Source: Candidatus Sumerlaeota bacterium
GTDB taxonomy: Bacteria; CG03; SLGR01
DNA: 26,994 bases
Direction of reading: 5' to 3'
Assembly (NCBI GenBank): GCA_007136585.1
Contig: SLGR01000142.1
Location: 1-26,994, forward strand
Below the pieces are notes generated by a model. It was given only the letters and a program-made list of their open reading frames with translations. It was not told the DNA's origin and did no database searches. Both the position numbers and the translations under genes were made by a program. This document shows positions 5,339 to 23,904 of the stretch, one piece after another (position 1 is the first letter of the stretch; the number at the start of each line of letters is the position of its first letter).

Positions 5339-7447
5339 ATGACAAAACTTACAAGCGCGCTGATTGAGAGAGGACTTGTTACGCCCGAGCAGATGGAAGA
5401 CGCCCGGTATAAGCAGATAGGGGCAAAGAAACCCCTCCACGAGGTATTGCTGGATATGGGTTTTCTCAGCGAGGAAGCTCTCTTTAAGGCTGCTTCGGAG
5501 GTTTTCGGGGTTCCTGTTTCTTCTTTGGAAAGCGAACGGATAGATCCCGCGGCAGTGGAGGCCCTTCCCTATGAATACTCCAGGAAGTACGGGGTTTTCC
5601 CCCTGAGGAAAGAAAACTCAAGCCTGGTTGTAGCTACCGGGGACCCGCAGAATATTATAGCCCTGGATGATTTAAGGAGCATTACAGGTTTGAGTATAAA
5701 ACCTGTATTGGCCCTCCAGAGCGATATTTCGAAGTATACTGAGAAGTACTACCAGGCGGATGAATCCATTTACAGTCTTGTGAAAAATATTGTTGAAGAT
5801 AAGGATAAGGTTGAGGTAAAAAAAGAATCTCCGGTTAAACCCGCCCATGATCCCGGAGATTTCAGAATAGACAGTTCCCCGGTCGTCCGCATAGTCAACC
5901 TTATACTTAGCGAAGCCGTAAAATCACGGGCCAGCGATATACATATAGAGCCGTTTGAGAAATTCACCGAGGTAAGGTACAGGGTGGACGGGTTTCTGAA
6001 AAGAATAATGAAGCTTCCAAATAATATGTCGCGGGCCATAATAGCCCGGGTGAAGATACTCGCGGAGCTTGATATAGCGGAGAAACGCAAGCCGCAGGAC
6101 GGAAGGATAAAAATTTCAATGGGGGGAAATAAAATAGATCTGAGGGTCTCAAGCGTCCCTGTTTTTTACGGTGAAAAAATAGTCATAAGGGTTCTGGATC
6201 CCAGCCAGGCAAGGGTGAATATCAAGGACCTGGGGCTTATGCAAGAGGAGTTTGATTTACTGAAGGCGGCAGTGAGAAGAACACAGGGGATGATTCTGTT
6301 GACCGGCCCCACGGGCTCGGGTAAGACATCAACCATATACGCCGCCCTGGCCGATGCGAATAGCGAAACGGTAAACATAATAACCGTTGAGGACCCGGTG
6401 GAGTACCAGATTGAAGGCATAAACCAGATACAGGTAAACCCGTCCAAAAACCTTAATTTCTCAAACGGGCTTAAAAGCATCTTAAGACAGGATCCCGATA
6501 TAATTTTCGTGGGTGAGATAAGGGATTACGAGACAGCTGAGATGGCTTTCAGGTCCTCCCTTACCGGGCACCTGGTTTTTTCAACGCTTCACACCAACAG
6601 CGCTTCAGCCACGGTTACGCGCCTTAAAGATATAGGGATAGAGCCCTTCCTTATAAGCTCATCATTGATACTGGTCGTGGCGCAGAGACTGGTCAGAGTT
6701 ATCTGTCCCCACTGCATAGAAATGTATGAACCTGAAAGAAGAATTTTAGAGAAGTACAGGCTCTATTTAAAGAAGGCGGGGGTCAGAGAGTTTTACCGTG
6801 GAGCCGGGTGCGAAGAATGCGGGTATTCCGGTTTCCTTGGAAGGACGGCAATATTTGAAATGCTGGAGTTTAATGAAAAAATAAGGGAGCTTATCTCAAA
6901 AAACGCCACTGAAGCGGAGATACTTGCCGAGGCCGAAAAGAACAGTTTCAGGACCCTGGCCGAATCAGGGATAATGAAGGTCGCAAGCCGTATAACCACC
7001 ATTGAGGAGGTGGACAGGACAACTGAGATGACAGGCCAGAAGGATAAGAGCACCCCCCCGGGGGATGAGAGGGAAACGCCCAGGATACTTATTGCCGACG
7101 ACGAAGAGGGCATCCGAACTATTCTGGAGAAACGCCTTCTCTCTTCAGGGTATGAGGTGATGACCGCTCTTAACGGCCGGGAGGCGGTAGGGATGGCCTT
7201 CAAGGAAAAACCCGACCTTGTAATAATGGATATTATGATGCCTGAGATGGACGGAATCCAGGCTACTCGGAAGTTGCGGGAGAGTCTTGAAACGGCTTCG
7301 ATCCCCGTTCTTATGCTTACGGCCAAGAAGGACAAACGCAGCGAACTGGAAGGGATAGACGCAGGCGCTGACGATTATATGACAAAACCCTTTGACAGGG
7401 ATAAACTTCTGGCAAGGATAAAAATGCTTTTAAGGAGAGCGGGATAA
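5339..7447 (+). CDS. PilB/GspE-type assembly ATPase fused to a C-terminal receiver domain
   Basis: The product is a 702-residue secretion or pilus-extension ATPase. The N-terminal MshEN/GspE_N-like region (about 1-145) is followed by the hexameric T2SE motor (about 165-560). The motor has Walker A GPTGSGKTS with Lys329, an Asp box, Walker B around DPDIIFVGEIRD and the His box STLHTNS. A zinc-type tetracysteine element is present (CPHC ... CEEC), as in PilB and GspE. A linker rich in Thr, Lys and Pro leads to a complete receiver domain (about 582-702) with acidic residues in IADDEEG, phosphoacceptor Asp631 (IMDIMMPEMDG), TAKKD and Lys in MTKPF. A fused receiver would let phosphorylation gate the motor directly. 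PilB usually ends near residue 570, so the receiver is an addition. Neighbours are two receivers upstream and three pseudopilin-type genes downstream. PilB and GspE cannot be separated by sequence alone. Confidence 0.93.
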   Translation: MTKLTSALIERGLVTPEQMEDARYKQIGAKKPLHEVLLDMGFLSEEALFKAASEVFGVPVSSLESERIDPAAVEALPYEYSRKYGVFPLRKENSSLVVATGDPQNIIALDDLRSITGLSIKPVLALQSDISKYTEKYYQADESIYSLVKNIVEDKDKVEVKKESPVKPAHDPGDFRIDSSPVVRIVNLILSEAVKSRASDIHIEPFEKFTEVRYRVDGFLKRIMKLPNNMSRAIIARVKILAELDIAEKRKPQDGRIKISMGGNKIDLRVSSVPVFYGEKIVIRVLDPSQARVNIKDLGLMQEEFDLLKAAVRRTQGMILLTGPTGSGKTSTIYAALADANSETVNIITVEDPVEYQIEGINQIQVNPSKNLNFSNGLKSILRQDPDIIFVGEIRDYETAEMAFRSSLTGHLVFSTLHTNSASATVTRLKDIGIEPFLISSSLILVVAQRLVRVICPHCIEMYEPERRILEKYRLYLKKAGVREFYRGAGCEECGYSGFLGRTAIFEMLEFNEKIRELISKNATEAEILAEAEKNSFRTLAESGIMKVASRITTIEEVDRTTEMTGQKDKSTPPGDERETPRILIADDEEGIRTILEKRLLSSGYEVMTALNGREAVGMAFKEKPDLVIMDIMMPEMDGIQATRKLRESLETASIPVLMLTAKKDKRSELEGIDAGADDYMTKPFDRDKLLARIKMLLRRAG

Positions 7448-11158: not shown

Positions 11159-11224
11159 ATGAGTAATAATGTTTCAGGGTTTGTGAAAAATATCACAAAG
11201 TACAGGGAGGCAGGTTATCAGTAA
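11159..11224 (+). other. Short reading frame that may be the displaced 5' end of hydG
   Basis: ATG at 11159 with GGAG a few bases upstream opens a 21-codon frame, ending EAGYQ before TAA. It overlaps the start of the HydG frame, offset by one base. HydG proteins normally carry about 20 residues before the FIDE/FIND block, which is what this frame would supply. It could be a frameshifted 5' end, a sequencing error or a coupling leader peptide. Confidence 0.5.
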
Positions 11225-12605
11225 CGCAAATTTCATAGATGAAGGATATATCCACGGTCTCATAAAAGCGGGGGAGGAGCCCGGCTCCGCTAAGGTAAAC
11301 CGTATTCTTGAGAAGGCCCTTGAGCTCAAGGGGCTTGAGACAGAAGAGGGCGCGGTTCTTTTAAACCTTACCCGCCCGGAGCAGCTCGGGAAGCTTTTTA
11401 ACGCGGCGGGGAAGATAAAAGAGCAGATATACGGAAACCGGCTGGTCATATTCGCCCCGCTCTACGTATCCAACTACTGCTCCAATAACTGTCTTTACTG
11501 CGGGTTCAGGAAGGATAATCTCAATATCCGGAGAAGATGCCTCTCCCCGGACGAGGTGAGGGACGAGGCCCGCGCGCTCCTTGAGGAGGGGCATAAACGC
11601 GCCCTTATGCTTATGGGCGAGTCGGAGAGGGAGTGTTCTTTTGACCGTTTCCTTGAATCAATAGAGGCCGCATACAGCGCGCGAGATGAGAAGGGAAGCT
11701 CCGTCAGGCGGATAAACGTTGAGATACCTCCCCAGCCCCCTGAGAACCTCCGGAAACTTTCCCGGGCCCGGATAGGGACCTATACGGTCTTTCAGGAGAC
11801 CTACCACAGGAAAACATACGAGATGATGCACCCCTCCGGGCCTAAAAGCAGTTACCTGGACCGCCTGTATGCCATGGACGAGGCTCTTTCAAACGGTCTT
11901 AACGATGTCGGGATAGGGGCCCTTTTCGGGCTTTACGATTACAGGTTCGAGGTTCTCTCCCTGATAGAACACTCAAGACACCTGGACAGCAAGTTCGGGG
12001 TGGGGCCCCATACCATATCGGTACCCAGGGTGGAACCTGCCGAAGGCGCGCCTCTGGCCTCCGCTCCCCCGAGCGGTGTCAGCGACGGGGAGATGAAGAA
12101 AATAGTCGCGGTCCTGAGATGCGCCGTTCCCTATACGGGGATAATACTCTCTACCCGTGAGACCGCCAGTCTCAGGGACGAGCTTTTCTCTCTGGGGGTC
12201 TCCCAGATAAGCGCCGGCTCAAAGACAGGCCCCGGCGGGTACTCAAGACCCGGGAGCGGAACCCAGTTCTCTCTTAATGATACCCGCCGGACCGGCGAGG
12301 TAATAGATTCGCTTATAATGCAGGGGTATATCCCTTCTTTCTGCACGGGGTGCTACCGGCTGGGTCGCGTCGGGGAGGATTTTATGGAACTTGCAAAACC
12401 CGGCCTCATAAAACTCCACTGCCTTCCTAACGCTCTTCTTACGCTAAAGGAGTACCTGCAGGATTACGCCGGTCCCGAAGCCAGGGAGAAGGGGGAGGCC
12501 CTTATAGAAAAGGAGCTGGGCTCCGTCCCGGATCCGGCTCGCCGGGAAAAGACCAGGGAGAACTTAAAGAAAATAGAAGATGGCGAAAGAGACATATATT
12601 TCTGA
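11217..12605 (+). CDS. hydG: [FeFe]-hydrogenase maturase HydG (radical SAM); start unresolved
   Basis: HydG cleaves tyrosine to give the CO and CN ligands of the H-cluster. The radical SAM triad CSNNCLYC lies at 11478-11501, after the family block GNRLVIFAPLYVSNY. The C-terminal cluster that separates HydG from ThiH is present as SFCTGCYRLGR, with a further Cys in LHCLPNALLTLKEYL. The reading frame is open from 11187, but has no ATG, GTG or TTG before the GTG at 11556, which is downstream of the essential cysteines. Family similarity begins at NANFIDEGYIHGL (about 11223). An ATG at 11159 in another frame encodes 21 residues and stops at TAA (11222-11224); removing one base there would join it to this frame with a normal HydG length. 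The listed start is only the first codon after GGGAGG (11205-11210). The 3' end overlaps hydE. Confidence 0.88.
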   Translation: MSNANFIDEGYIHGLIKAGEEPGSAKVNRILEKALELKGLETEEGAVLLNLTRPEQLGKLFNAAGKIKEQIYGNRLVIFAPLYVSNYCSNNCLYCGFRKDNLNIRRRCLSPDEVRDEARALLEEGHKRALMLMGESERECSFDRFLESIEAAYSARDEKGSSVRRINVEIPPQPPENLRKLSRARIGTYTVFQETYHRKTYEMMHPSGPKSSYLDRLYAMDEALSNGLNDVGIGALFGLYDYRFEVLSLIEHSRHLDSKFGVGPHTISVPRVEPAEGAPLASAPPSGVSDGEMKKIVAVLRCAVPYTGIILSTRETASLRDELFSLGVSQISAGSKTGPGGYSRPGSGTQFSLNDTRRTGEVIDSLIMQGYIPSFCTGCYRLGRVGEDFMELAKPGLIKLHCLPNALLTLKEYLQDYAGPEAREKGEALIEKELGSVPDPARREKTRENLKKIEDGERDIYF

Positions 12606-13644
12606 TTGCATAGGGGACCTTGAGTTTCTTATAACCTCTTCCGGGGAAGAGCAGGCCCGCCTGATTGAGAAGGCCGGGAGCGTAAGAAGGGAGCAGGTCG
12701 GGGAGAAGGTGTATTTCAGGGGGCTAATAGAGTTTTCAAATATATGCGGTAACCCCTGCCCTTACTGCGGTATAAACAGGGACCGGAAGATAGACCGCTA
12801 CAGGATGAGCCCGGAGGAGGTGGTTGATGCGGCGCGGTTCTGTATTGAGTACGGGTGTGTTTCCCTTGTCCTTCAGTCCGGGGAGGAGCGTTCCGGTGAG
12901 TTTACGGGGTATGTTGAGGATATCCTTGGTAGCATATTCAGAGAGTACCCGGGGGTATCTGTAACGCTGAGCGCAGGGGAGCAGGACCGCCAGGTCTACC
13001 GGAGGTTCCGCCGGTCGGGCGCGGAGAGGTATCTCCTCAGGATAGAGAGTTCCGAGCGGGAACTTTACCGTAAGCTTCATCACGGCTCAATGTCTTTTGA
13101 AGAACGGGCTGAGTGTATTATGGCCCTGCGCGAAGAAGGGTTCCAGGTCGGGACAGGCGTAATGATAGGGCTCCCCGGGCAGAGCGCGCGCTCCCTTGCC
13201 CGCGACCTGCTCTTTATGAGGGAAACCGATGTTGATATGGTCGGAATGGGCCCGTATATACCGGTAAAGGGGGAGAAGGAGCTTGAGAGCCCCTATACTC
13301 CCGGAGAGCGGCTCAGTATGACGCTCAATATGACGGCTCTTCTGAGGCTTCTTATGCCCGATATAAACATAGCCGCGGCCTCGGCTCTCCAGGCCCTTGA
13401 CCCTCAGGGAAGGGAGAAGGCCCTTAAGGCCGGGGCAAACGTCATAATGCCTCTTATGACCCCGGCGCGGTACAGGGTCCTTTACTCGCTCTACGAGGGG
13501 AAACCCTGCCTGGAGGAGAGAGCTTCTGATTGTCTGGGATGTATCACCGGGAGGGTGAAGAGCGCGGGGCTTATCCCTGCTCCGGGGGAGAAGGGGGATT
13601 CTCTGAGGTATCTCAGGAGGGTAAAGAGTGTCTGCTCCGGTTGA
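12580..13644 (+). CDS. hydE: [FeFe]-hydrogenase maturase HydE (radical SAM)
   Basis: The 354-residue enzyme uses S-adenosylmethionine to build part of the diiron precursor of the H-cluster. The radical SAM motif is C56-x3-C60-x2-C63 within FSNICGNPCPYCGINRDR. HydE-typical segments follow: YRMSPEEVVDAA, VLQSGEE, HHGSMSFEERAECI, GVMIGLPGQS and MGPYIPVKGEKELE, and the C-terminal AASALQALDPQGREKAL with MPLMTPARYR. Biotin synthase, a related family, lacks this combination. The gene overlaps hydG by 26 bases and hydF by 17 bases, so all three maturases are translationally coupled. No optional second iron-sulfur cluster is obvious. Confidence 0.95.
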   Translation: MAKETYISDCIGDLEFLITSSGEEQARLIEKAGSVRREQVGEKVYFRGLIEFSNICGNPCPYCGINRDRKIDRYRMSPEEVVDAARFCIEYGCVSLVLQSGEERSGEFTGYVEDILGSIFREYPGVSVTLSAGEQDRQVYRRFRRSGAERYLLRIESSERELYRKLHHGSMSFEERAECIMALREEGFQVGTGVMIGLPGQSARSLARDLLFMRETDVDMVGMGPYIPVKGEKELESPYTPGERLSMTLNMTALLRLLMPDINIAAASALQALDPQGREKALKAGANVIMPLMTPARYRVLYSLYEGKPCLEERASDCLGCITGRVKSAGLIPAPGEKGDSLRYLRRVKSVCSG

Positions 13645-14911
13645 GCGCAGGAATATAGGGATATTCGGCCGGGTTAACTCCGGGAAGAGCACGCTTATGA
13701 ACCTGATCACGCAGGAAGAGACCTCCATAGTGGACTCCCATCCCGGGACGACCGCCGATACAAGGAAAGCCCTTATGGAGATACACGGGCTGGGACCTAT
13801 AGCGCTTTATGATACCGCCGGCGCGGACGAAGGGGGGTGCCTGGGAGAGAAAAAGAAGAAAAAGGTGCTTGCCGGGATAGAGGAATCCGACCTGGTTCTG
13901 CTTATGATAGATTCATCCTCGGAAGTTCTTGATATGGAAGAGGAGATACTTAAACACTCACGGTTGCATAACAGGCGGGTCTGCATAGTTTATAACGATT
14001 TCAGGGGGCGTCCCCGCCGCCCTCCCGAGGAGTTCGCCGGCCGGTACCCGTTCCTGAAGTTTCTGCCCTTCATATCGCTGGAGGCCGTGGATACTTCCGC
14101 GCGGGGAAGGCTTATAGATTTTATGGCTGAGAATTTACAGGATGAGAAGAAAGAACCTGAGCTTCTGCCCTTCCTGAAAAGGGACAGGTTTTACGCCCTT
14201 ATAATACCGATGGACGTTGAAACCCCTTCAGGGAGGCTCCTCCGCCCCCAGGCTATGGTTGAGGAGTATATAATCAGGAACTGGGCCTGGCCGGCGGCAT
14301 ACCGTCTTGACCTCTCCGCGGCAAGATCCCCGGATCCCGGGAAAAGGGATGCCGAACTCAGAAGGTTTTTCCGGTTTATGGAGAGTCTCGGGAACCCCGC
14401 CGGGGTTATAACGGATTCACAGGCCATTGAAGAAGTAGTAGGTATGGTTGAGCCCGGGGTCTTGCTTACGAGCTTCTCAATAGTTATGATTAACTACTTC
14501 AGCCGGGGAAACCTCTCCAGGTTCGCGGACGGAATGAGAACCCTGGAGACCCTGAACCCGGGGGACCGGGTCCTTGTGGTGGAAGCCTGCACCCACAGCA
14601 GGATAGGCGAGGATATAGGAACGGTTCAGATCCCGGGGCTTTTTGAGCAACTCTACCCGGGAGTTATACTGGAGCACAGTTTCGGAAAAGAGCTTTTTGA
14701 GATAAGGGGTATTGAGAAATATTCCCTGCTGATACATTGCGGGGCCTGCATGCTGAGCTCCCAGAAGCTTGGGGCCCGGATGAGGGACCTTGACGCGGCG
14801 GGAGTCCCGTACACAAATTACGGGCTATTCCTGGCCGGCGCTCGCGGAGATGAGACCCTGGAAAGGGTACTGGAGCCCTGGGGCATTTCAAACAGGAAGG
14901 AGAAAGAATAA
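13628..14911 (+). CDS. hydF: [FeFe]-hydrogenase maturation GTPase HydF
   Basis: The 427-residue scaffold protein receives the diiron subcluster from HydE and HydG and delivers it to HydA. Its N-terminal GTPase domain shows the P-loop GRVNSGKST (about 13-21), the switch TTADTR and DTAGADEGG. A dimerisation domain and the C-terminal cluster-binding domain follow, with EACTHSR and, about 50 residues later, IHCGACMLSS. Together these form the CxH...HCxxC ligand set for the [4Fe-4S] cluster. The start is GTG at 13628, chosen because AGGAGG (13615-13620) lies at ideal spacing and the protein then begins at the expected point before the P-loop. It overlaps the end of hydE. Confidence 0.95.
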   Translation: MSAPVERRNIGIFGRVNSGKSTLMNLITQEETSIVDSHPGTTADTRKALMEIHGLGPIALYDTAGADEGGCLGEKKKKKVLAGIEESDLVLLMIDSSSEVLDMEEEILKHSRLHNRRVCIVYNDFRGRPRRPPEEFAGRYPFLKFLPFISLEAVDTSARGRLIDFMAENLQDEKKEPELLPFLKRDRFYALIIPMDVETPSGRLLRPQAMVEEYIIRNWAWPAAYRLDLSAARSPDPGKRDAELRRFFRFMESLGNPAGVITDSQAIEEVVGMVEPGVLLTSFSIVMINYFSRGNLSRFADGMRTLETLNPGDRVLVVEACTHSRIGEDIGTVQIPGLFEQLYPGVILEHSFGKELFEIRGIEKYSLLIHCGACMLSSQKLGARMRDLDAAGVPYTNYGLFLAGARGDETLERVLEPWGISNRKEKE

Positions 14912-14912
14912 C

Positions 14913-15416
14913 TTGAAAGCAGCACTTAAAAAAGAAATTGACGGGATAATAAAATCGTATGACGGGACTCATGGATCGCTTCTGGGTATCCTGGAGGAGA
15001 TACAGAAGCGCAACCCCCATAATTACCTTCCCGAGAAAACACTGGCCTATACGGCGAAAAAGACCGGCATTCCACCGGCGAAGGTTTACGGGGTTGTGAC
15101 ATTTTATTCCTTTTTCAGTCTGATTCCGCAGGGAAAACACTGTATTTCCATATGCCGCGGGACCGCCTGTCACACCAAGGGTTCAAGAAAGCTTCTTGAT
15201 TACCTGAGGAGCTCCTTTGAATTCGAGGGGGATACAGGAGGGGACGCTAAGCTTTTCATAACTACGAAAGACCGCTATCTTACCGTAAGAACAGTGGCCT
15301 GTTTCGGGCAGTGCGCCCTTGCGCCTGTTATTGAGGTTGACGGGAAAATATACGGCTCTGTCACGGTAGAAGAACTTAAGAAGATACTGAAGAAACTTAA
15401 AGGAAGCAGGCAATGA
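14913..15416 (+). CDS. hydC: HydC/NuoE-like [2Fe-2S] subunit of hydrogenase 1
   Basis: This 167-residue thioredoxin-fold ferredoxin forms part of the diaphorase core with HydB. The family block KTGIPPAKVYGVVTFYSFF is present. The four cluster ligands are Cys81 and Cys86 (CRGTAC) and Cys130 and Cys134 (CFGQC). The start is taken as TTG at 14913, one base after the hydF stop. It has GGAAGGAG upstream, and the downstream residues (KAALKKEIDGII) are what the family begins with. The frame can be extended upstream to 14790, but this would be hydF-antiphase sequence without family similarity. The stop overlaps the hydB start codon (ATGA), which indicates coupling. Confidence 0.9.
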   Translation: MKAALKKEIDGIIKSYDGTHGSLLGILEEIQKRNPHNYLPEKTLAYTAKKTGIPPAKVYGVVTFYSFFSLIPQGKHCISICRGTACHTKGSRKLLDYLRSSFEFEGDTGGDAKLFITTKDRYLTVRTVACFGQCALAPVIEVDGKIYGSVTVEELKKILKKLKGSRQ

Positions 15417-18400
15417 AGATAAAAAGCATAGGACAGATAAAAAAGGCGCAGCTCCGGGGCTTGGAGAAACTCCGACCGGATAATATCAGGATCGCCGTAG
15501 GTATGAGCACCTGCGGTGCGGGGATGGGTGCAGAGGAAGTTTTCCTCGGGTTTGAAAAAGCGCTTAAGAGACTTTCAATGGAGGCTTTTCTGACCCGGAC
15601 AGGGTGCTTCGGGTACTGCGCCGAGGAGCCGCTGGTGAATATACTTATCCCGGGGTTTCCGCTCCTTGTTTTCAGCAGGGTAACCCCGGATGATACCCTT
15701 GAGATACTGAAAAAAATAAAGAAAGGTCAGGTTACGTCTCTTAAACCTTTCTTTCAGGTAACCGGATGGGATCATCATACCGGCCGGATTGCATACGGCA
15801 AAAAACTTGACGGGATACCTCTCTGGGATGAGATTCCTTTTTTCCGCGGCCAGGTAAAGAACGTGATGCGCAACTGCGGAATTATCAACCCGCTTGATAT
15901 AGAGGAGTACATAGGGGTCGGCGGGTACCGCCCGCTTCTTGAAGTTCTGAAAACCTCGGATCCGGAGGAGACCCTCAAACAGATAAAGGAGTCCGGTCTG
16001 CGCGGCCGGGGCGGAGCGGGTTTTCCGGTCTGGTTGAAGTGGCACCTTATAAGGGAGAATAATGATACTCCCAAGTATATCATCTGCAACGCCGATGAGG
16101 GCGATCCCGGGGCCTATATGAACCGGAACGAGCTTGAAGGCGACCCCCATATGGTGATAGAGGGGATGATCATAGGCGGGTTTGTTACCGGCGCATCGGA
16201 GGGGATAATATACTGCCGGGCTGAATATCCCCTGGCGGTGGAGCATCTTAACGAGGCTGTTTCCCAGGCCCGGCGCCGCGGTTTCCTGGGGAAAAATATA
16301 GCGGGAACCGGGTTTGATTTTGAGATAAGCCTCATAGAGGGGGCGGGTGCTTTCGTCTGCGGGGCCGAGACAGCGCTCATCTCGTCTGTTGAGGGGCATC
16401 CGGGATGGCCCTCTCCCCGACCGCCGTACCCCTCCGAATCGGGGCTTTACGGCAAGCCCACCTGCATAAACAATGTGGAGACTTTTGCCAATATCCCTAT
16501 GATAGTTTCCGTAGGAGGCCGGGAGTTCGCGAAAACCGGAACCGGCAAAAGCAGCGGGACAAAGGTTTTTTCCCTGGTCGGGAAAGTAAAGAATACCGGG
16601 CTTGTGGAGCTTCCCCTCGGCACCCCTATCCGTAAGCTTATATACGATATAGGAGGCGGAGCCCCGGGGGGAAAGAAGATAAAAGCCGTTCAGACCGGGG
16701 GCCCGTCCGGGGGATGCATACCCGTCTCTGAGTTCAACAGCCCCATAGATTATGAGTCCCTTGCAGCCCTTGGCTCCATAATGGGATCCGGGGGGGTCGT
16801 CATAATGGATCAGGATAACTGTATGGTGGACGTGGCCAACTATTTTACAGAGTTCACCACTTCGGAATCCTGCGGGAAGTGCGTTCCCTGCCGGGAGGGG
16901 TTAAGCCACGTGCTTGATATGCTGGAAAAGATAAAGCGCGGAGAGGGAAAGATGAAGCTTCTTGACGAGCTTGCGCAGCTTAATTCCGTTATCTGTGACA
17001 CGGCTCTCTGCGGGCTGGGCCAGACAGGCCCCAACCCGGTTATGACAACCATTAAGTATTTTCTGAGAGAATATGAGGAGCATATCAGGGAAGGGTTCTG
17101 CGATGCGGGGGTCTGCGAAGAGCTTTTCAGTACCCCCTGCGGAAACAGTTGCCCGGTGCATATGAATATCCCGGGATACCTTCAGCTTCTTTTGGAGGAG
17201 AGGATTGAGGAAGCCTTTGAACTTATCGTAATGGATAACCCCCTCCCGTCATCCATAGGGCGGATATGCCACTTCCACTGCAAGATGCGGTGCCGCAGGG
17301 AGGATATAGACGCCCCGGTTGCGCAGGGAGAGGTTCACCGCTATATAGCCGACGCTATAGCTGAGAAAGGCCTTCTTAAGGAATTTACGGAAAAGATAAA
17401 ATCCCGCCGCCTTAAGAGCACCGGAAAAAAAATAGCCGTTATAGGGGCGGGGCCAGCAGGGCTTACCGCCGCGTTTTACCTGAATTTACTGGGAAACCGG
17501 GTAAGGGTTTACGATGCCAGGGAGGAACCAGGGGGGATACTCCGGTGGGGTATCCCCGCTCACCGTCTTCCGCGGGAGGTTCTGGCCCGGGAAGTTGAGT
17601 TTATCGCGAGTACAGGAGTTAAGTTTTCTGCCGGCAGGGATCTCTCGGCGAAAGATATCGCCGGGCTGAGGGAAAAGAACGACGCGGTTTTAATGGCAAC
17701 CGGGGCATATGCTTCACGCGCCCTGGGTGTACCCGGGGAGGAGCTTAAGGGCGTCATCGCCGGCACAAGGTTCCTGGAGGATATCGCATCCGGACGGAAA
17801 CCCGAGATAGGCGGGAAAGTGCTTGTAATAGGCGGCGGGAACGTCGCTATAGACGCCGCAAGGACAGCCCGGAGACTGGGAAGCGAAGTTACAGTTGTAT
17901 ACAGGCGCAGCCGGGAACAGATGCCGGCAAACGCCTCCGAGATAGAGGATGCGGCCGCGGAGAAGGTGAAATTCCTCTTCTGGCGGTCTCCGGAGGAGAT
18001 ATTGGCGGATAAGAAGGGTCTCCTTAAGGGGCTCCGGGTTTCCCTTAACGAACCTGGGGAATACGATCTCTCAGGACGTATCCGCCCTGTGGCGACGGGA
18101 AAGAGCGTGGAGATCCCCGCTGATACCGTTATAAGCGCGATAGGAGAGACGGTTGACAGGGAGTTTCTTGCTTCCTGCGGGCTTGATACCGATAAATGGG
18201 GGAATATAGCCGCTGATCCTTTCACCTTTGAGAACAAAAAGGGTGTATATGCCGCCGGGGATGCCGTAACCGGTCCCGGGACGGCGGTTGAAGCAATGTC
18301 TCAGGCCAAGAAGGCAGCTTTCGCCATAGATGCCGCGTTATCCGGGAAGGACCGGAGAAGCGGAATTTTCAGGAAACCTGATTACGAAAACAGGGTTCCC

Positions 18401-18562
18401 GAAAAACCGCGGGGCGGCGGGCCCGTGAAAGTAAGGAAGCTTTCCACCCAAGCACGGGTTAAGGGTTTTGAGGAGGTATCTAAGGGGCTGGGCCCGGATC
18501 AGGCCCGCAGGGAGGCCCGGCGGTGCCTGCGCTGCGATGTACGTATTTCCGACGGAGAATAA
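15413..18562 (+). CDS. hydB: HydB (NuoF-like) fused to a GltD-like NADPH/FAD oxidoreductase module
   Basis: This 1049-residue fusion starts with a thioredoxin-like domain (about 1-105) showing only Cys34, Cys65 and Cys69, so its cluster may be absent or unusual. The NuoF core (about 155-560) has the FMN/NADH-site motifs GRGGAGFPVWLKW and NADEGDPGAYMNR, GAFVCGAETALI, and a [4Fe-4S] site at Cys487, Cys490, Cys493 and Cys533. Standard HydB ends with two ferredoxin-type clusters. Here a GltD/NfnL-like domain follows instead (about 565-1049). It has iron-sulfur ligands Cys576, Cys580, Cys619, Cys623 and Cys627, a FAD site at GAGPAGL (Gly678), a second dinucleotide site at GGGNVAIDAAR (Gly807), AGDAVTGPGTAVEA, and a terminal RCLRCD. 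Family knowledge says GltD-type modules bind NADPH. The complex may therefore couple H2, NAD(H), NADP(H) and possibly ferredoxin; that coupling is inferred. Confidence 0.92.
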   Translation: MKIKSIGQIKKAQLRGLEKLRPDNIRIAVGMSTCGAGMGAEEVFLGFEKALKRLSMEAFLTRTGCFGYCAEEPLVNILIPGFPLLVFSRVTPDDTLEILKKIKKGQVTSLKPFFQVTGWDHHTGRIAYGKKLDGIPLWDEIPFFRGQVKNVMRNCGIINPLDIEEYIGVGGYRPLLEVLKTSDPEETLKQIKESGLRGRGGAGFPVWLKWHLIRENNDTPKYIICNADEGDPGAYMNRNELEGDPHMVIEGMIIGGFVTGASEGIIYCRAEYPLAVEHLNEAVSQARRRGFLGKNIAGTGFDFEISLIEGAGAFVCGAETALISSVEGHPGWPSPRPPYPSESGLYGKPTCINNVETFANIPMIVSVGGREFAKTGTGKSSGTKVFSLVGKVKNTGLVELPLGTPIRKLIYDIGGGAPGGKKIKAVQTGGPSGGCIPVSEFNSPIDYESLAALGSIMGSGGVVIMDQDNCMVDVANYFTEFTTSESCGKCVPCREGLSHVLDMLEKIKRGEGKMKLLDELAQLNSVICDTALCGLGQTGPNPVMTTIKYFLREYEEHIREGFCDAGVCEELFSTPCGNSCPVHMNIPGYLQLLLEERIEEAFELIVMDNPLPSSIGRICHFHCKMRCRREDIDAPVAQGEVHRYIADAIAEKGLLKEFTEKIKSRRLKSTGKKIAVIGAGPAGLTAAFYLNLLGNRVRVYDAREEPGGILRWGIPAHRLPREVLAREVEFIASTGVKFSAGRDLSAKDIAGLREKNDAVLMATGAYASRALGVPGEELKGVIAGTRFLEDIASGRKPEIGGKVLVIGGGNVAIDAARTARRLGSEVTVVYRRSREQMPANASEIEDAAAEKVKFLFWRSPEEILADKKGLLKGLRVSLNEPGEYDLSGRIRPVATGKSVEIPADTVISAIGETVDREFLASCGLDTDKWGNIAADPFTFENKKGVYAAGDAVTGPGTAVEAMSQAKKAAFAIDAALSGKDRRSGIFRKPDYENRVPEKPRGGGPVKVRKLSTQARVKGFEEVSKGLGPDQARREARRCLRCDVRISDGE

Positions 18563-18564
18563 AG

Positions 18565-20346
18565 ATGACTCAGAAACAACTTAGAATAAAAATAAACGGT
18601 GACACTTATCTTATGTACGAGGGGCAGTCGGTGCTTGAGGCCTGCAGGTCCGCGGGTATAAATATACCCAACCTCTGCTACCTGGAGGGGGTAAGCAGAA
18701 GGGCTTCCTGCGGCATATGTGTCGTTGAGATTGAGGGGGCGAGGACCCTTGTCAGGTCCTGCGTTACCCCCATAAGGGAGGGGATAGAGATATTCACAAA
18801 TACCGGGAGGGTCAGGAAGGCAAGGCATACTAATATAAAGCTGCTTCTTGCCAACCATCCCAGGAACTGCCTTGAGTGCGATAAGAACAGGCAGTGCGAG
18901 CTCCAGAAGCTCTCGGACGACCTTGATGTCAGGGATACCAGTTACCCTAAGATAAGGAAGAAACATTACGATATAGACGCAAGTTCCCCGTCGCTTACCC
19001 GTGACCACGAGAAATGCATCCTCTGCGCCCGGTGCGTGGAGGTCTGCTCCCAGGTGCAGTCGGTAGACGCGATTGAGATAGCCGAGAGGGGCATGGAGGC
19101 TCATGTTTCCACTTTTTTCAATAAAGGCCTTGACGCCTCCGAGTGCGTAAACTGCGGGCAGTGTCTTCTCGTATGTCCTACAGGGGCTCTTATGGCGAAG
19201 CACGAAACGGGGTCCGTATGGAAAGCCATTGACGAACCAGGCCGCCACGTGGTAGTCCAGGCGGCCCCTGCTATAAGGGCGGCTATAGGAGAGGAGTTCG
19301 GGTTTGAGGCTGGAATGCCCCTTACGGGAACCCTTGCGGCAGCTCTAAGAAAAATGGGTTTTGACAGGGTATTCGATACCCAGTTTACCGCGGACCTTAC
19401 CATTATTGAAGAAGGGAACGAGCTTATAAGCAGGATAAAGAATAAAGGGGTTCTCCCTCTTATAACTTCCTGTTCCCCGGGGTGGATAAGGTTTGCGGAG
19501 ACCTTCTTCCCTAAACTTCTCCCGAACCTCTCAACCTGCAAGTCTCCGCAGCAGATGTTCGGGACCCTGGCCAAGACCTATTACGCAGAGAAGATGAATA
19601 TTGACCCTTCCAAAATAACCGTGGTCTCGGTTATGCCCTGTACGGCAAAGAAGTTCGAGGCCCGCCGCCCTGAGATGAATAGCGCCGCGGAGTACTGGCG
19701 AAATAAGGGGAGGCGGCTTCCCGGGGGAACCCGTGACGTTGATTCTGTAATAACCACCAGGGAACTGGCGGATATGATAAGGGAATCGGGTATAGATTTC
19801 GCCCGGCTTACCGGAGAGAAGTTTGATGAGCCTTTCGGAATTTCCACAGGCGCGGGGACGATATTCGGGGCTACGGGCGGAGTAATGGAGGCCGCGCTTA
19901 GGACAGCTTACGCGGAGCTTACAGGAAAGAGCCTGAAGGACCTAAACCTTAAGGCAGTCCGGGGTATGGGGGGTGTGCGGGAAGCCTCGGTCGATATCAA
20001 TGGCCTTACCCTTAAGGTGGCTGTTGCGCACGGACTGAAAAACGCCCGGGAGGTTATGGAACAGGTATCAAAGGGGAAAAGCCCCTATCATTTTATTGAG
20101 ATAATGACCTGCCCGGGAGGGTGTATAGGAGGCGGGGGGCAGCCTGTGCCCGCAACCACGGATGTAAGAGAAAAAAGAATAAAAGCGGTTTATTCCGAGG
20201 ATGAGTCCATGCCTCTCAGGGAGTCCCACAAGAACCCCGCGGTAATCGCGCTTTATGATGAATTTCTTAAGGAGCCGCTCAGCGGCGTTTCGCACTCAAT
20301 GCTGCATACAGAGTATTCCCGCCGGGACCTTTATCCCGGTATATAA
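18565..20346 (+). CDS. hydA: [FeFe]-hydrogenase catalytic subunit HydA of hydrogenase 1
   Basis: The 593-residue subunit has the multi-cluster layout of bifurcating-type group A enzymes. The N-terminal [2Fe-2S] domain (about 1-75) contains CYLEGVSRRASCGIC and RSC. A His-ligated [4Fe-4S] site follows (HPRNCLECDKNRQC), then two [4Fe-4S] ferredoxin motifs (CILCARCVEVC and CVNCGQCLLVCP). The H-domain has L1 TSCSPGW (Cys303), L2 MPCTAKKFE (Cys359) and L3 TCPGGCIGGGGQP (Cys516, Cys520), so all H-cluster ligands are present. L1 has Ser where monomeric enzymes often have a second Cys. The C-terminus keeps the short LHTEYSRR tail. The ATG at 18565 follows GGAG in the hydB stop region, and upstream in-frame codons are inside hydB. 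Confidence 0.96.
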   Translation: MTQKQLRIKINGDTYLMYEGQSVLEACRSAGINIPNLCYLEGVSRRASCGICVVEIEGARTLVRSCVTPIREGIEIFTNTGRVRKARHTNIKLLLANHPRNCLECDKNRQCELQKLSDDLDVRDTSYPKIRKKHYDIDASSPSLTRDHEKCILCARCVEVCSQVQSVDAIEIAERGMEAHVSTFFNKGLDASECVNCGQCLLVCPTGALMAKHETGSVWKAIDEPGRHVVVQAAPAIRAAIGEEFGFEAGMPLTGTLAAALRKMGFDRVFDTQFTADLTIIEEGNELISRIKNKGVLPLITSCSPGWIRFAETFFPKLLPNLSTCKSPQQMFGTLAKTYYAEKMNIDPSKITVVSVMPCTAKKFEARRPEMNSAAEYWRNKGRRLPGGTRDVDSVITTRELADMIRESGIDFARLTGEKFDEPFGISTGAGTIFGATGGVMEAALRTAYAELTGKSLKDLNLKAVRGMGGVREASVDINGLTLKVAVAHGLKNAREVMEQVSKGKSPYHFIEIMTCPGGCIGGGGQPVPATTDVREKRIKAVYSEDESMPLRESHKNPAVIALYDEFLKEPLSGVSHSMLHTEYSRRDLYPGI

Positions 20347-20369
20347 ACCTGTTTTAATGTGAATTTTTA

Positions 20370-20401
20370 TTGACAAAGAACGGGAAAATTATAATTATAA
20401 C
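20370..20401 (+). promoter_or_regulatory. Candidate sigma-70 promoter of the second hydrogenase operon
   Basis: A perfect TTGACA (20370-20375) precedes an AT-rich -10 region, TATAATTATAAC (20390-20401). TAATTA after 16 bases or AATTAT after 17 bases fits spacing best, because the exact TATAAT is 14 bases away. The 103-base gap is the only sizeable one in the hydrogenase region. It suggests that the two hydrogenases are separately transcribed. Confidence 0.5.
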
Positions 20402-20449
20402 TGAGAATGAAGCTCTCTGGCGGCGGAGCGTATTTACGGAGGTTAATTT

Positions 20450-20905
20450 ATGAGCCCGGAAGATTTGATCAGCAGGTCTGCAGAAAAGCACGGCCGCGAG
20501 CGTAAGAACCTTATCCCAATCTTACAGGATATAGTCAGGGAGAATAGCTACCTCTCGGAAGAGGCTATGGTCAGTGTGGCCAGGGAGCTTGATATCTCTC
20601 CGGCGGAAGTGTACGGGGTCGCCACCTTCTACTCGTTTCTTGATACAAAGCCGCTCGGCAAAAATATAATCAGGATATGCAAGACGATCATATGCTACAT
20701 GCACGGGCAGGATGAGGTGATAAGGGCCATAGAGGATCGGCTTAAGATAAAGCTTGGAGAGACGACCCCTGACGGGGAGTTCAGTTTTCTACCGACCAAC
20801 TGCATCGGGCACTGCCACAAGGGGCCCGCGATGCTCATAAACGACAGGGTTTACAGCAGCCTGACTCCGGAGACTGCGGTCAGGGCTGTAGAGGAGTATA
20901 TTTAA
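20450..20905 (+). CDS. hydC: HydC/NuoE-like [2Fe-2S] subunit of hydrogenase 2
   Basis: This 151-residue thioredoxin-fold ferredoxin has the family block LDISPAEVYGVATFYSFL and cluster ligands Cys77 and Cys82 (CKTIIC) and Cys118 and Cys122 (CIGHC). It is homologous to the first HydC but clearly diverged, so the two hydrogenases are not a recent duplication. A consensus GGAGGT ribosome binding site (about 20438-20443) precedes the ATG. The gene opens the second operon, 104 bases after hydA of hydrogenase 1, and ends two bases before hydB. It should form the electron-bifurcating diaphorase core with that HydB. Confidence 0.93.
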   Translation: MSPEDLISRSAEKHGRERKNLIPILQDIVRENSYLSEEAMVSVARELDISPAEVYGVATFYSFLDTKPLGKNIIRICKTIICYMHGQDEVIRAIEDRLKIKLGETTPDGEFSFLPTNCIGHCHKGPAMLINDRVYSSLTPETAVRAVEEYI

Positions 20906-20907
20906 CC

Positions 20908-22095
20908 ATGGACAGCAGCACCAGGGAACGCAGAATAGCCGAGCATAAAAAAAGAGTCAACCTTATATTTAAAAAATGCGTCTGGGATGATTTTCTTGAC
21001 CGGGCCCTGGAGATGTCTCCGGAAGATATGCTTGAAAAAGTGAAGGAATCGGGGCTTAGGGGCCGGGGCGGAGCCGGGTTTCCCACGTGGCTGAAATGGA
21101 AGTTCGCGCGCGAGGCGGAGGCTGATGAGAAATACGTAATCTGCAACGCGGATGAAGGCGAACCCGGAACTTTCAAGGACCGCGCTATCCTGCAGGAACA
21201 GGCCGGCAAGGTTCTCCCGGGTATGCTTGTCTGCGCCAAGGTTATAGGAGCGGAAAAGGGTTTTATATACCTCCGCGGCGAGTACGCCTATCTTCTCCCC
21301 GCGCTTTCTCAGGAGGTTGAGAATTTTAATGAGAAGATCAGGGAGAAGGGTGAGAGGTTCAGTATAGAGATCAAACTCGGAAGCGGCGCCTATGTATGCG
21401 GGGAGGAGACAGCTCTTATAGAATCTCTTGAGGGGAACCGCGGCGAGCCCCGAAACAAGCCCCCTTTTCCGGTAAGCGAGGGGTACCTTGGAAAACCCAC
21501 GGTGGTTCACAACGTTGAAACGCTTGTGTACGCCTCAATTATAATATCAGAGGGGCCGGAGTGTTTTAAGAGCCTGGGTACTTCTGATTCGGCCGGGGCG
21601 AAGGTCTTCTGCATATCCGGGGATACCGATCTTGACGAGGGCATATACGAACTTGAGATGGGTATGACCATAAAGGAGTTCGTGGAGCTTTTCAGCGACG
21701 GAGATATAAAAGCCGTGCAGGTCGGGGGAGCTTCCGGGCACTGCGTGCCGAGAAAAAAATTCGCAGATACCATAATAGGTTTTGAGGGTGTTCCGACCGG
21801 GGGTTCAATGGTCCTTTTCAACAGCAGCCGCTCAATGTACAATGTCCTTCATAACTATCTTGAGTTTTTCGAGGAGGAATCCTGTGGCCAGTGCACTCCC
21901 TGCCGGATAGGGTGCCAGCAGCTTCTCAAGGGGATAGAGGCTGTAAAGTCGGGTGAGAAACCGTCGGAATATCTGGACGACCTTGTAAAACTTGCCGGTA
22001 TGATGAAGATTTCCGCTAAATGCGGCCTGGGACAGTCCGCGGCCAACCCCTTTATATCAATAGTAGAGCATTTCCGCGAAGAGATCATGTATTAG
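20908..22095 (+). CDS. hydB: HydB (NuoF-like) subunit of hydrogenase 2, minimal form
   Basis: This 395-residue NADH-binding flavoprotein contains the NuoF core only. It has GRGGAGFPTWLKW and NADEGEPGTFKDR for FMN and NADH, GAYVCGEETALIESLEG, the SLBB-like region (about 230-300) and the [4Fe-4S] site Cys326, Cys329, Cys332 (SCGQCTPC) with Cys372. It lacks both the N-terminal thioredoxin-like domain and any C-terminal ferredoxin or GltD module, unlike the first hydB. Such short HydB proteins occur in NAD-linked bifurcating hydrogenases. It would oxidise or reduce NAD(H) and pass electrons to HydA and ferredoxin. It is tightly spaced with its neighbours, with AGAGGAG upstream inside hydC. Confidence 0.93.
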   Translation: MDSSTRERRIAEHKKRVNLIFKKCVWDDFLDRALEMSPEDMLEKVKESGLRGRGGAGFPTWLKWKFAREAEADEKYVICNADEGEPGTFKDRAILQEQAGKVLPGMLVCAKVIGAEKGFIYLRGEYAYLLPALSQEVENFNEKIREKGERFSIEIKLGSGAYVCGEETALIESLEGNRGEPRNKPPFPVSEGYLGKPTVVHNVETLVYASIIISEGPECFKSLGTSDSAGAKVFCISGDTDLDEGIYELEMGMTIKEFVELFSDGDIKAVQVGGASGHCVPRKKFADTIIGFEGVPTGGSMVLFNSSRSMYNVLHNYLEFFEEESCGQCTPCRIGCQQLLKGIEAVKSGEKPSEYLDDLVKLAGMMKISAKCGLGQSAANPFISIVEHFREEIMY

Positions 22096-22107
22096 AGGAA
22101 ACCCGTA

Positions 22108-23904
22108 ATGTCAGAAAAGATAACCCTGAAAATAAATAATATTGATGTGACTGTAAGCGCCGGGGCCACGGTGCTTGACGCCGCCAGGAAACTTAAGATC
22201 AAGATCCCGACCCTCTGTAATCACCCCGATATATGCGTCGCGGGGAACTGCCGGGTCTGCGTGGTGGAGCAGAAGGATTCCGGCGCCCTGCCTGCCGCCT
22301 GCGCCACACCGGCGGCTGAAGGGATGGAGATACATACCAATACCCGCAGGGTAAGGGAGGCAAGGAAGGCCGTAATATCCCTCCTCCTTTCCGAACATAA
22401 CAATGACTGCCTGAGGTGCTATAAGAACGGAAACTGCGAGCTTCAGGAGCTCGCAACAGAGTACACGGTGGAGGCTGACAGGTATATAAGTATCTTAAAA
22501 GATTACGGTGTAGACAAGTCCTCTCCTTCAATACAGAAAGACGATTCAAAATGTGTCAGGTGCCAGCGGTGTGTGCGGACCTGCGCCAACCTTCAGGATG
22601 TAAGCGCCCTGTGGATCTCGGGTAAAGGCAGAAAGAATAAGATATCCACATTTATGGACAAGACCATTGATTATGTCGTGTGCACGAATTGCGGACAATG
22701 CGTTAACAGGTGTCCCACCGGTGCCCTCACAGAGAAGAATTACATTGAGGAAGTGTGGGGGGCGATAGACGACCCTTCAAAACACGTGGTTGTTCAGACC
22801 GCCCCGGCGGTCAGGGTCGCGCTGGGCGAGGTGCTTGGATGCGAAACCGGGTCCAGGGTTACGGGAAAGATGGTGACCGTCCTCAAGAGGCTCGGGTTTG
22901 ACAGGGTCTTTGATACCAATTTTACCGCTGATCTTACGATTATTGAGGAAGGGCACGAGCTTCTGCGCAGGCTTTCGGAAAAACTCCGTGACGGCAAGGA
23001 TGTTCCTCTTCCCCAGTTCACCTCCTGTTCACCCGGATGGATCAAGTACGCCGAACACGTATTCCCCGAAATACTGGATTACCTGTCAACCTGCAAATCG
23101 CCGCAGCAGATGTTCGGGGCCCTGGCAAAGACCTATTATGCCGAGAAGGCTGGGATTGACCCTGCGGATATGGTGGTTGTATCTGTGATGCCCTGTACTG
23201 CTAAGAAATTCGAGGCAGCCCGTCCCGAGATGAACTCCAGCGGATTCCGGGATGTGGACTGCGTGATAACCACCAGGGAACTCGGGCATATGATAAAGCA
23301 GTCCGGGATAGATTTCAATAACCTTGAGGAGTCTCTCTGCGACAGCCTTCTGGGTGCTCATACCGGCGCTGCCGTTATTTTCGGGGCCACAGGCGGCGTT
23401 ATGGAGGCGGCCCTGCGCACCGCGTACGAGGTGGTAACCGGGCGGGCGGTACCGTTTGAGAACCTTAACATAATACCCGTAAGAGGGATGAACGGCGTGA
23501 GGGAGGCCTCGGTTAAGATTGAGGGGTGTCTCAGCAAGTGGAAGTTCCTTGAAGGTGCTGAGTTAAAGTTGGCCATAGCCCACGGCCTGGTTAACGCGCG
23601 CAAGCTCGCGAAACAGGTTGCCGAAGGCCGGTCGCCGTATCATTTCATAGAGATAATGGCCTGTCCCGGCGGATGCCTGGGAGGAGGCGGTCAGCCTATC
23701 CCGACAAATATGGATATAAGGATGAAAAGGATGGACGCCATTTACTCCGAGGACGAGTCTCTTGAGTTCAGAAAATCCCACGATAACCCTGAGGTAATCA
23801 GGATATACGAAGATTTTCTCAAGGAACCGCTTGGGAAGAGATCCCATAAACTACTTCATACCCGTTATACAGAACGGGGTAGGTACAGAACACTTAACAG
23901 GTAA
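22108..23904 (+). CDS. hydA: [FeFe]-hydrogenase catalytic subunit HydA of hydrogenase 2
   Basis: The 598-residue catalytic subunit has the same domain plan as the first HydA. It has a [2Fe-2S] domain (CNHPDICVAGNCRVC and ACATP), a His-ligated site (EHNNDCLRCYKNGNC), two [4Fe-4S] motifs (CVRCQRCVRTC and CTNCGQCVNRCP) and the H-domain. The H-cluster ligands are Cys307 (TSCSPGW), Cys363 (MPCTAKKFE), Cys519 and Cys523 (ACPGGCLGGGGQP). L1 again has Ser after the ligand Cys. A small insertion (EGCLSKWKFLEGAEL, about residue 472) distinguishes it from HydA1. The ribosome binding site is GAGG at about 22095. The gene ends the plus-strand block and is followed by a convergent gene. Confidence 0.96.
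   Translation: MSEKITLKINNIDVTVSAGATVLDAARKLKIKIPTLCNHPDICVAGNCRVCVVEQKDSGALPAACATPAAEGMEIHTNTRRVREARKAVISLLLSEHNNDCLRCYKNGNCELQELATEYTVEADRYISILKDYGVDKSSPSIQKDDSKCVRCQRCVRTCANLQDVSALWISGKGRKNKISTFMDKTIDYVVCTNCGQCVNRCPTGALTEKNYIEEVWGAIDDPSKHVVVQTAPAVRVALGEVLGCETGSRVTGKMVTVLKRLGFDRVFDTNFTADLTIIEEGHELLRRLSEKLRDGKDVPLPQFTSCSPGWIKYAEHVFPEILDYLSTCKSPQQMFGALAKTYYAEKAGIDPADMVVVSVMPCTAKKFEAARPEMNSSGFRDVDCVITTRELGHMIKQSGIDFNNLEESLCDSLLGAHTGAAVIFGATGGVMEAALRTAYEVVTGRAVPFENLNIIPVRGMNGVREASVKIEGCLSKWKFLEGAELKLAIAHGLVNARKLAKQVAEGRSPYHFIEIMACPGGCLGGGGQPIPTNMDIRMKRMDAIYSEDESLEFRKSHDNPEVIRIYEDFLKEPLGKRSHKLLHTRYTERGRYRTLNR

Follow-up and report, generated by a model that had tools for sequence, protein, structure and literature searches.

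A candidate NADP(H)-linked bifurcating [FeFe] hydrogenase whose HydB subunit carries a GltD-like module at the ferredoxin-domain position

What serves as the low-potential partner of a HydABC-type [FeFe] hydrogenase whose HydB subunit carries a GltD-like module where a ferredoxin domain is usually found? The question is raised by the window, the whole stretch of 26,994 nucleotides analysed here, which corresponds to contig C149 in a Candidatus Sumerlaeota genome of 1.88 Mb and 257 contigs. Between about 11.2 and 23.9 kb, its + strand bears the genes HydG-HydE-HydF-HydC1-HydB1-HydA1-HydC2-HydB2-HydA2 in that order, and gene and domain calls bore out the preliminary description of a maturase set followed by two HydCBA trimers. 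The characterised bifurcating HydABC-like enzymes in the literature found use ferredoxin as low-potential partner. For the first trimer, we favour (probability roughly 0.58) a BfuABC-type bifurcating [FeFe] hydrogenase in which this partner is NADP(H) and not ferredoxin.

The HydB1 gene (15413-18562, + strand) is one frame of 1049 codons without stops. Its product matches nuoF_fam (residues 159-558), Fer4_20/DPD_II (563-653), Pyr_redox_2 (673-965) and PRK12771 (529-1041), and has an N-terminal thioredoxin-like part with only three cysteines (34, 65 and 69). An AlphaFold2 (AF2) model of the protein has a pLDDT of 88.6 and a pTM of 0.84. The NuoF core (residues 159-558, 15887-17086; TIGR01959, 449.5 bits) contains the flavin mononucleotide (FMN) site and the ligands of cluster B1, Cys487, Cys490, Cys493 and Cys533. 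Bifurcating BfuB proteins are marked by an Ala/Met pair near the FMN-NADH pocket (PMC7311640, PMC9304861) and by a site of three cysteines and one histidine around B1, which was interpreted for A. mobile as a five-coordinate [2Fe-2S] cluster, B2 (PMC9304861), and for T. maritima as a hinge that binds Zn (PMC9499530). HydB1 has both marks, Ala234/Met236 and Cys470/His557/Cys563/Cys568, the latter (16820-17116) aligned to Cys438, His525, Cys531 and Cys536 of A. mobile in the numbering of PMC9304861. All of these residues are invariant in an alignment (A1) of 32 fused HydB proteins.

A canonical HydB has, after the hinge, a ferredoxin domain with two [4Fe-4S] clusters, B3 and B4, which donates electrons to ferredoxin. 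Such a protein is encoded in the same genome on contig C197 (locus L104, ...CRSGKCSGLLSYRIDPDKCTRCSICFKKCP...). HydB1 instead continues from the hinge (CDAGVC) into the clusters of a GltD/NfnL-like module (CGNSCPVHMNIP), which begins 8 residues past Cys568. Domain search and alignment found the B3/B4 domain in neither HydB1 nor HydB2. An unfused HydB from another locus, L014, which is nested in the fused NuoF clade, bears a ferredoxin domain at the identical junction; therefore, ferredoxin and GltD modules have been exchanged at this point. Judged from these alignments, the GltD module is a replacement of the ferredoxin domain with clusters B3 and B4 and not an addition to HydABC. The junction alignment and the domain calls thus uphold the earlier view of a 1049-residue HydB in which GltD substitutes for the C-terminal ferredoxins, beside a 395-residue bare core, and this substitution is central to the mechanism proposed below. 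At its other end HydB1 closes with a tail (about residues 1005-1042, 18425-18538) that phmmer identified as homologous to the N-terminus of NfnL, aligning it to NfnL residues 14-48 (StnC was aligned through 568). The CxxC ligand pair that lies at the N-terminus of NfnL is thus C-terminal in HydB1 (Cys1038/Cys1041), as in StnC.

The catalytic subunit is encoded immediately downstream. HydA1 (18565-20346, + strand) combines an H-cluster domain with accessory-cluster domains (PF02906, PF02256, PF13510, PF10588, PF12838) and scores 857 bits against NF040763, a group-A6 NCBIfam model with a cut-off of 765; HydA2 (22108-23904) scores 856 bits. Both carry the H-cluster motifs TSCSPGW, MPCTAKK and EIMxCPGGCxGGGGQ, and the pairing of a NuoF-GltD HydB with a true HydA, as first described, was thereby confirmed. 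The gene upstream of HydB1 encodes the thioredoxin-like [2Fe-2S] subunit HydC1 (14913-15416; PF01257, 1.9e-39), presumably starting from a TTG codon and 67-74% identical to the orthologues of the same order (L041, L096-L098).

A scan of genome contigs uncovered about 27 fusions of complete or almost complete length in independent assemblies from Omnitrophota, Elusimicrobiota, FCPU426, Margulisbacteria, Bacteroidota and Chloroflexota, and a search for relatives added five fused proteins from other lineages. An artificial joining of two genes near position 17095, which had been named in advance as a finding that would undo the case, was rejected on this ground, the fusions from independent assemblies being of equal length; its probability is practically nil. 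The preliminary description had also proposed looking at the H-cluster ligands of the gene after each fusion. At nearly all loci the fused HydB gene is preceded by HydC and followed by a HydA-like gene, and the three H-cluster motifs are intact in every downstream gene whose H-cluster region could be read whole and aligned; several contigs end within this gene, and in L058 it is split into two frames. The partner differs at four loci: a HoxU-type subunit in Chloroflexota L053 and L054, a short NuoG-like protein in L056 and a complex I gene cluster in L103.

The GltD/NfnL-like module itself (residues 572-980, 17126-18352) contains the [4Fe-4S] ligands Cys576, Cys580, Cys619, Cys623 and Cys627, as well as His642, a flavin adenine dinucleotide (FAD) fold, Arg718 and a putative NADP(H) motif, Tyr830-Arg831-Arg832 (YRR). 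Seven cluster cysteines, the FAD fold, Arg718 and YRR are conserved in 32 of 32 relatives. In the predicted model the GltD half superimposes on NADP(H)-bound NfnL (5jca) over 405 residues with a root-mean-square deviation (rmsd) of 1.5 and a Z score of 40.6, and on the GltD domain of StnC (8oh5) over 450 residues with an rmsd of 1.9 and a Z score of 46.5. NfnL also has YRR in the corresponding segment. By analogy to the GltD and thioredoxin-reductase families, we take YRR of HydB1 to contact the 2'-phosphate of NADP. These features agree with the NADPH-type module that had been proposed. The FAD-proximal cluster has an unusual ligand in the relatives, Glu in NfnB and Lys170 in StnC (PMC10482914). 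The position that aligns with it, residue 642, is His in 26 of the 32 fused proteins and Lys in the remaining 6, and a ligand role for His642 is inferred from this equivalence. A relation between the His/Lys split and the presence of a HydA partner was considered and rejected, as L011/L101 has both HydA and Lys.

From the domain order, the conserved ligands, the missing B3/B4 domain, the predicted folds and the conserved neighbourhood we infer a cofactor content, an electron route, a specificity for NADP, a coupling and a direction as follows. Taken up at the H-cluster, electrons of H2 would be relayed by the clusters of HydA1 and by B1 as far as the HydB1 FMN, where they would be split. One pair would leave there as NADH, and the other would travel by way of HydC1 and the Zn/B2 hinge into the GltD module, whose two [4Fe-4S] clusters and FAD would pass it on to NADP+. 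The module would swing on the hinge much as the ferredoxin "bridge" domain of HydABC does. The high-potential couple would then be NAD(H) and the low-potential one NADP(H), with H2 at mid-potential, and the net reaction would be 2 H2 + NAD+ + NADP+ <-> NADH + NADPH + 2 H+, which in fermentation would run toward H2. HydABC2 would be a separate, NADH-only, non-bifurcating hydrogenase using the same maturases. Since no NfnS-like partner was found among the genes of the cluster by gene list and domain search, the FAD of the module has one apparent exit.

Several points weigh against this scheme. The position of A. mobile Cys476 is occupied by Lys508 in HydB1, and the content of the hinge site is itself disputed, Zn (PMC9499530) versus [2Fe-2S] (PMC9304861). 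NADPH, at about -380 mV, would be a weaker low-potential partner than ferredoxin, with a smaller energetic need for bifurcation. The presumed preference for NADP rests on a motif. Over 9bp5_B and 9n5u_B, the VIA range reaches into residues 573-636, with few aligned residues added, and says little on the position of the module. Finally, the literature found contains no biochemistry for any NuoF-GltD fusion.

The closeness of the NADH and NADPH potentials would make strict gating dispensable, so that the trimer could be a non-bifurcating H2:NAD(P) oxidoreductase, or an H2-linked transhydrogenase, with two nucleotide sites exchanging independently with H2. Hyd1ABC of S. wolfei, in which bifurcation was lost along with B3/B4, provides a precedent (PMC11406978, PMC7311640). 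However, the bifurcation residues of BfuB, including the Zn/B2 histidine, are invariant in the 32 fused proteins and absent from the neighbouring HydB2, and we consider this explanation unlikely. In another reading the GltD FAD would bifurcate like that of NfnB, so that FMN would not be the sole bifurcating flavin, and ferredoxin would still dock near a GltD cluster. An FAD centre additional to FMN-FeS was proposed for sub-type I BfuABC by the authors of an mSystems study (PMC11406978), and Arg718, which is invariant in the fused set, aligns with NfnB Arg201. It also aligns with StnC Arg239, however, and since the FAD of StnC is non-bifurcating (PMC10482914), this arginine cannot decide the matter. 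The lack of an NfnS partner for the high-potential branch, the missing B3/B4 domain and the presence of His instead of Glu at residue 642 all speak against this reading, which appears improbable. The earlier idea of H2, NAD(H), NADP(H) and possibly ferredoxin on one complex is accordingly doubtful as worded, the ferredoxin-docking domain being the very part that was replaced. Lastly, the module could have a structural or regulatory role without NADP(H) chemistry, as extra domains can gain assembly roles and StnC has an FdhF-like part without activity (PMC10482914); the invariance of its FAD-fold, NADP-motif and cluster residues across several phyla makes this very improbable.

Compared with known systems, the NADP(H)-linked trimer proposed here shares with the canonical HydABC of T. 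maritima, A. woodii and T. kivui the H-cluster of HydA, the NuoF/FMN core, B1, the Zn/B2 hinge, the Ala/Met pair and HydC; it differs by the loss of the B3/B4 domain, the GltD module and the N-terminal thioredoxin domain with three cysteines. HydB1 resembles StnABC/Nfn-Bfu (S. ovata, T. sibiricus, C. saccharolyticus) in having a GltD FAD-NADP(H) module on a HydBC core and a C-terminal Cys tail. In StnABC, however, GltD sits on a NuoG-like subunit without an H-cluster, as mid-potential donor, and B3/B4 are retained for ferredoxin, whereas in HydABC1 the HydB subunit carries GltD where the ferredoxin domain would be and is accompanied by a true HydA with an H-cluster. With NfnAB, HydB1 has in common the NfnL fold, the Arg201 equivalent and, by prediction, FAD, NADP(H) and two [4Fe-4S] clusters; unlike NfnAB, it has no NfnS, His642 in place of Glu and a C-terminal CxxC pair.

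The suspicion that such fusions might already be on record was well founded. The architecture is already published, as sub-type I BfuABC of Hydrogenedentota and near relatives, which was predicted from sequence in 2024, without biochemistry (PMC11406978). Like the enzymes of that study, HydABC1 has a Group A3 HydA and a BfuB with DPD_II and an FAD/NAD(P) domain replacing B3/B4, and HydB1 shows the defining arrangement, PF14691 and PF07992 after PF10589, with HydA1 adjacent. The present fusions differ in belonging to other phyla and in lacking BfuD; also, those authors proposed FAD as a second bifurcation centre, whereas we propose NADP(H) as a replacement for ferredoxin. The fusion trees took in no named Hydrogenedentota sequence, and the same fusion event is not implied. 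No report of a NuoF-GltD fusion in Elusimicrobiota or Omnitrophota was found among the titles, abstracts and passages covered by the literature search. What is new, then, is the large clade in other phyla, the evidence for several origins, the invariant hinge and NADP residues, the unusual His642, the genome with three types and the reading as a replacement.

The history of the fusion was analysed with trees from quick searches, the NuoF tree being built on NuoF cores; HydA2 and HydB2 formed long branches of unsure placement. The fusion clade of the window (27 fused rows) was recovered in both the NuoF and the GltD tree, and the two halves of HydB1 therefore evolve together. Two unfused rows (L014 and L016) fell within this clade in the NuoF tree, pointing to module exchange or reversion in view of the L014 junction. 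Other fusions (L056, L099, L100, L101/L102 and L103) were placed outside. A single origin for all NuoF-GltD fusions was rejected in this sample by the approximately unbiased (AU) test (p 1.4e-11), and so was a group joining the window's clade with L101/L102 (p 1.9e-7), which was named after seeing the tree. On the trees, these rejections provide evidence that the fusion arose more than once, or that its halves recombined.

The second trimer is of a different kind. HydB2 (20908-22095, 395 residues) matches Complex1_51K and NADH_4Fe-4S only. It has Thr/Lys at the Ala/Met positions (GEPGTFKDR) and Ser in place of Cys470, and it terminates after the B1 domain, before the His/Cys/Cys ligands of the Zn/B2 site. 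Non-bifurcating enzymes are recognised by Thr or Ser at position 232 and Lys, Ser or Ala at position 234 in T. maritima numbering, together with the lack of an extra FeS domain (PMC7311640, PMC9304861). By those criteria HydABC2, which also has a separate HydC (HydC2, 20450-20905; PF01257, 5.8e-48), would be a non-bifurcating NADH-dependent enzyme like Hyd1ABC of S. wolfei, the match being one at the sequence level. Thus, the preliminary description of both trimers as bifurcating did not hold for HydABC2, whose HydB2 also lacks B3/B4; as for the complete cluster motifs ascribed to both trimers, those of the H-cluster are present in HydA1 and HydA2, but HydB2 has neither the Ala/Met pair nor the His and Cys ligands of the Zn/B2 site.

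Together with the canonical set on C197, in which HydA is cut by the contig end, the genome thus appears to hold candidates for NADH-only (HydABC2), NADH/NADPH (HydABC1) and NADH/ferredoxin (C197) types of HydABC. With potentials of -280 mV for NADH, -380 mV for NADPH and -500 mV for ferredoxin (PMC9304861), H2 at equilibrium was calculated to be about 3 Pa for NADH only, 146 Pa for NADH plus NADPH and 16 kPa for NADH plus ferredoxin, which suggests that the three types form a thermodynamic ladder. An NADP(H)-type family would test the FMN/HydC/hinge gate itself, as against ferredoxin, as the maker of bifurcation and, if real, would link H2 directly to NADPH without Nfn. The wider picture, of a ferredoxin-free bifurcating hydrogenase with a swinging GltD/NADPH arm, a swap that evolved more than once and one genome with three types of HydABC, each tuned to a different H2 pressure, is a tentative one to which we give somewhat less than even odds. 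Contig C240 of the same genome also carries a Stn-like gene set with NuoG-GltD (L105).

A number of observations concern the neighbourhoods of the relatives. The Chloroflexota fusions followed by HoxU-type subunits (L053 1953-6320, above the NCBIfam cut-off; L054 4029-8852) suggest that the NuoF-GltD module also pairs with other electron-input partners. In L103 (G036:C36, 3-9636) a fusion of about 1020 residues with the bifurcation residues kept lies in the order NuoE, NuoF-GltD, NuoB, NuoC, NuoD, NuoG, a set that would encode a variant of complex I linked to NADPH and possibly capable of bifurcation. Six Omnitrophota loci (L034, L036, L037, L039, L048 and L051) have a canonical HydC-HydD-HydB-HydA set directly after the fused trimer, so that NADP-type and ferredoxin-type trimers would be paired there. 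The combination of a fused and a bare trimer was rejected as a conserved pair, since no bare trimer was observed beside the fused trimer in the near relatives L041, L096 and L098. The HydB1 orthologue of the same family in L096 (G002:C29) has an in-frame TAA near codon 263 (2734-2738), reflecting sequencing error or decay. Several contigs of Omnitrophota and FCPU426 have, close to the fused hydrogenase, a separate GltD/NfnL-like gene of 470-520 codons (L038 13985-15424, L047 378-1814, L049 8936-10492, L051 1256-2698, L052 6006-7412, L055 5965-7413 and L058 13834-15306).

The remaining genes of the window's cluster encode the maturases HydE (12580-13644; TIGR03956, 311 bits) and HydG and the maturation GTPase HydF (13628-14911; TIGR03918, 286 bits; PF18133, PF18128), all on the + strand. 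The HydG frame is open from about 11187 to 12605 and matches TIGR03955 (392.6 bits) from 11556 on. The ATG at 11159, originally taken as its start, is in another frame, which stops after 21 codons. No ATG, GTG or TTG occurs in the HydG frame upstream of 11556, although conserved sequence begins at about 11217-11223; either a non-standard start codon or a small indel would account for this. Within 11187-11556, an AGGGAGG is located 5 bases upstream of an ATC at 11217. Elsewhere in the window, positions 5339-7447 encode a PilB-type pilus ATPase with a response-regulator receiver domain at its C-terminus, neighboured by genes for a PAS histidine kinase, two stand-alone receivers and pilin-like proteins.

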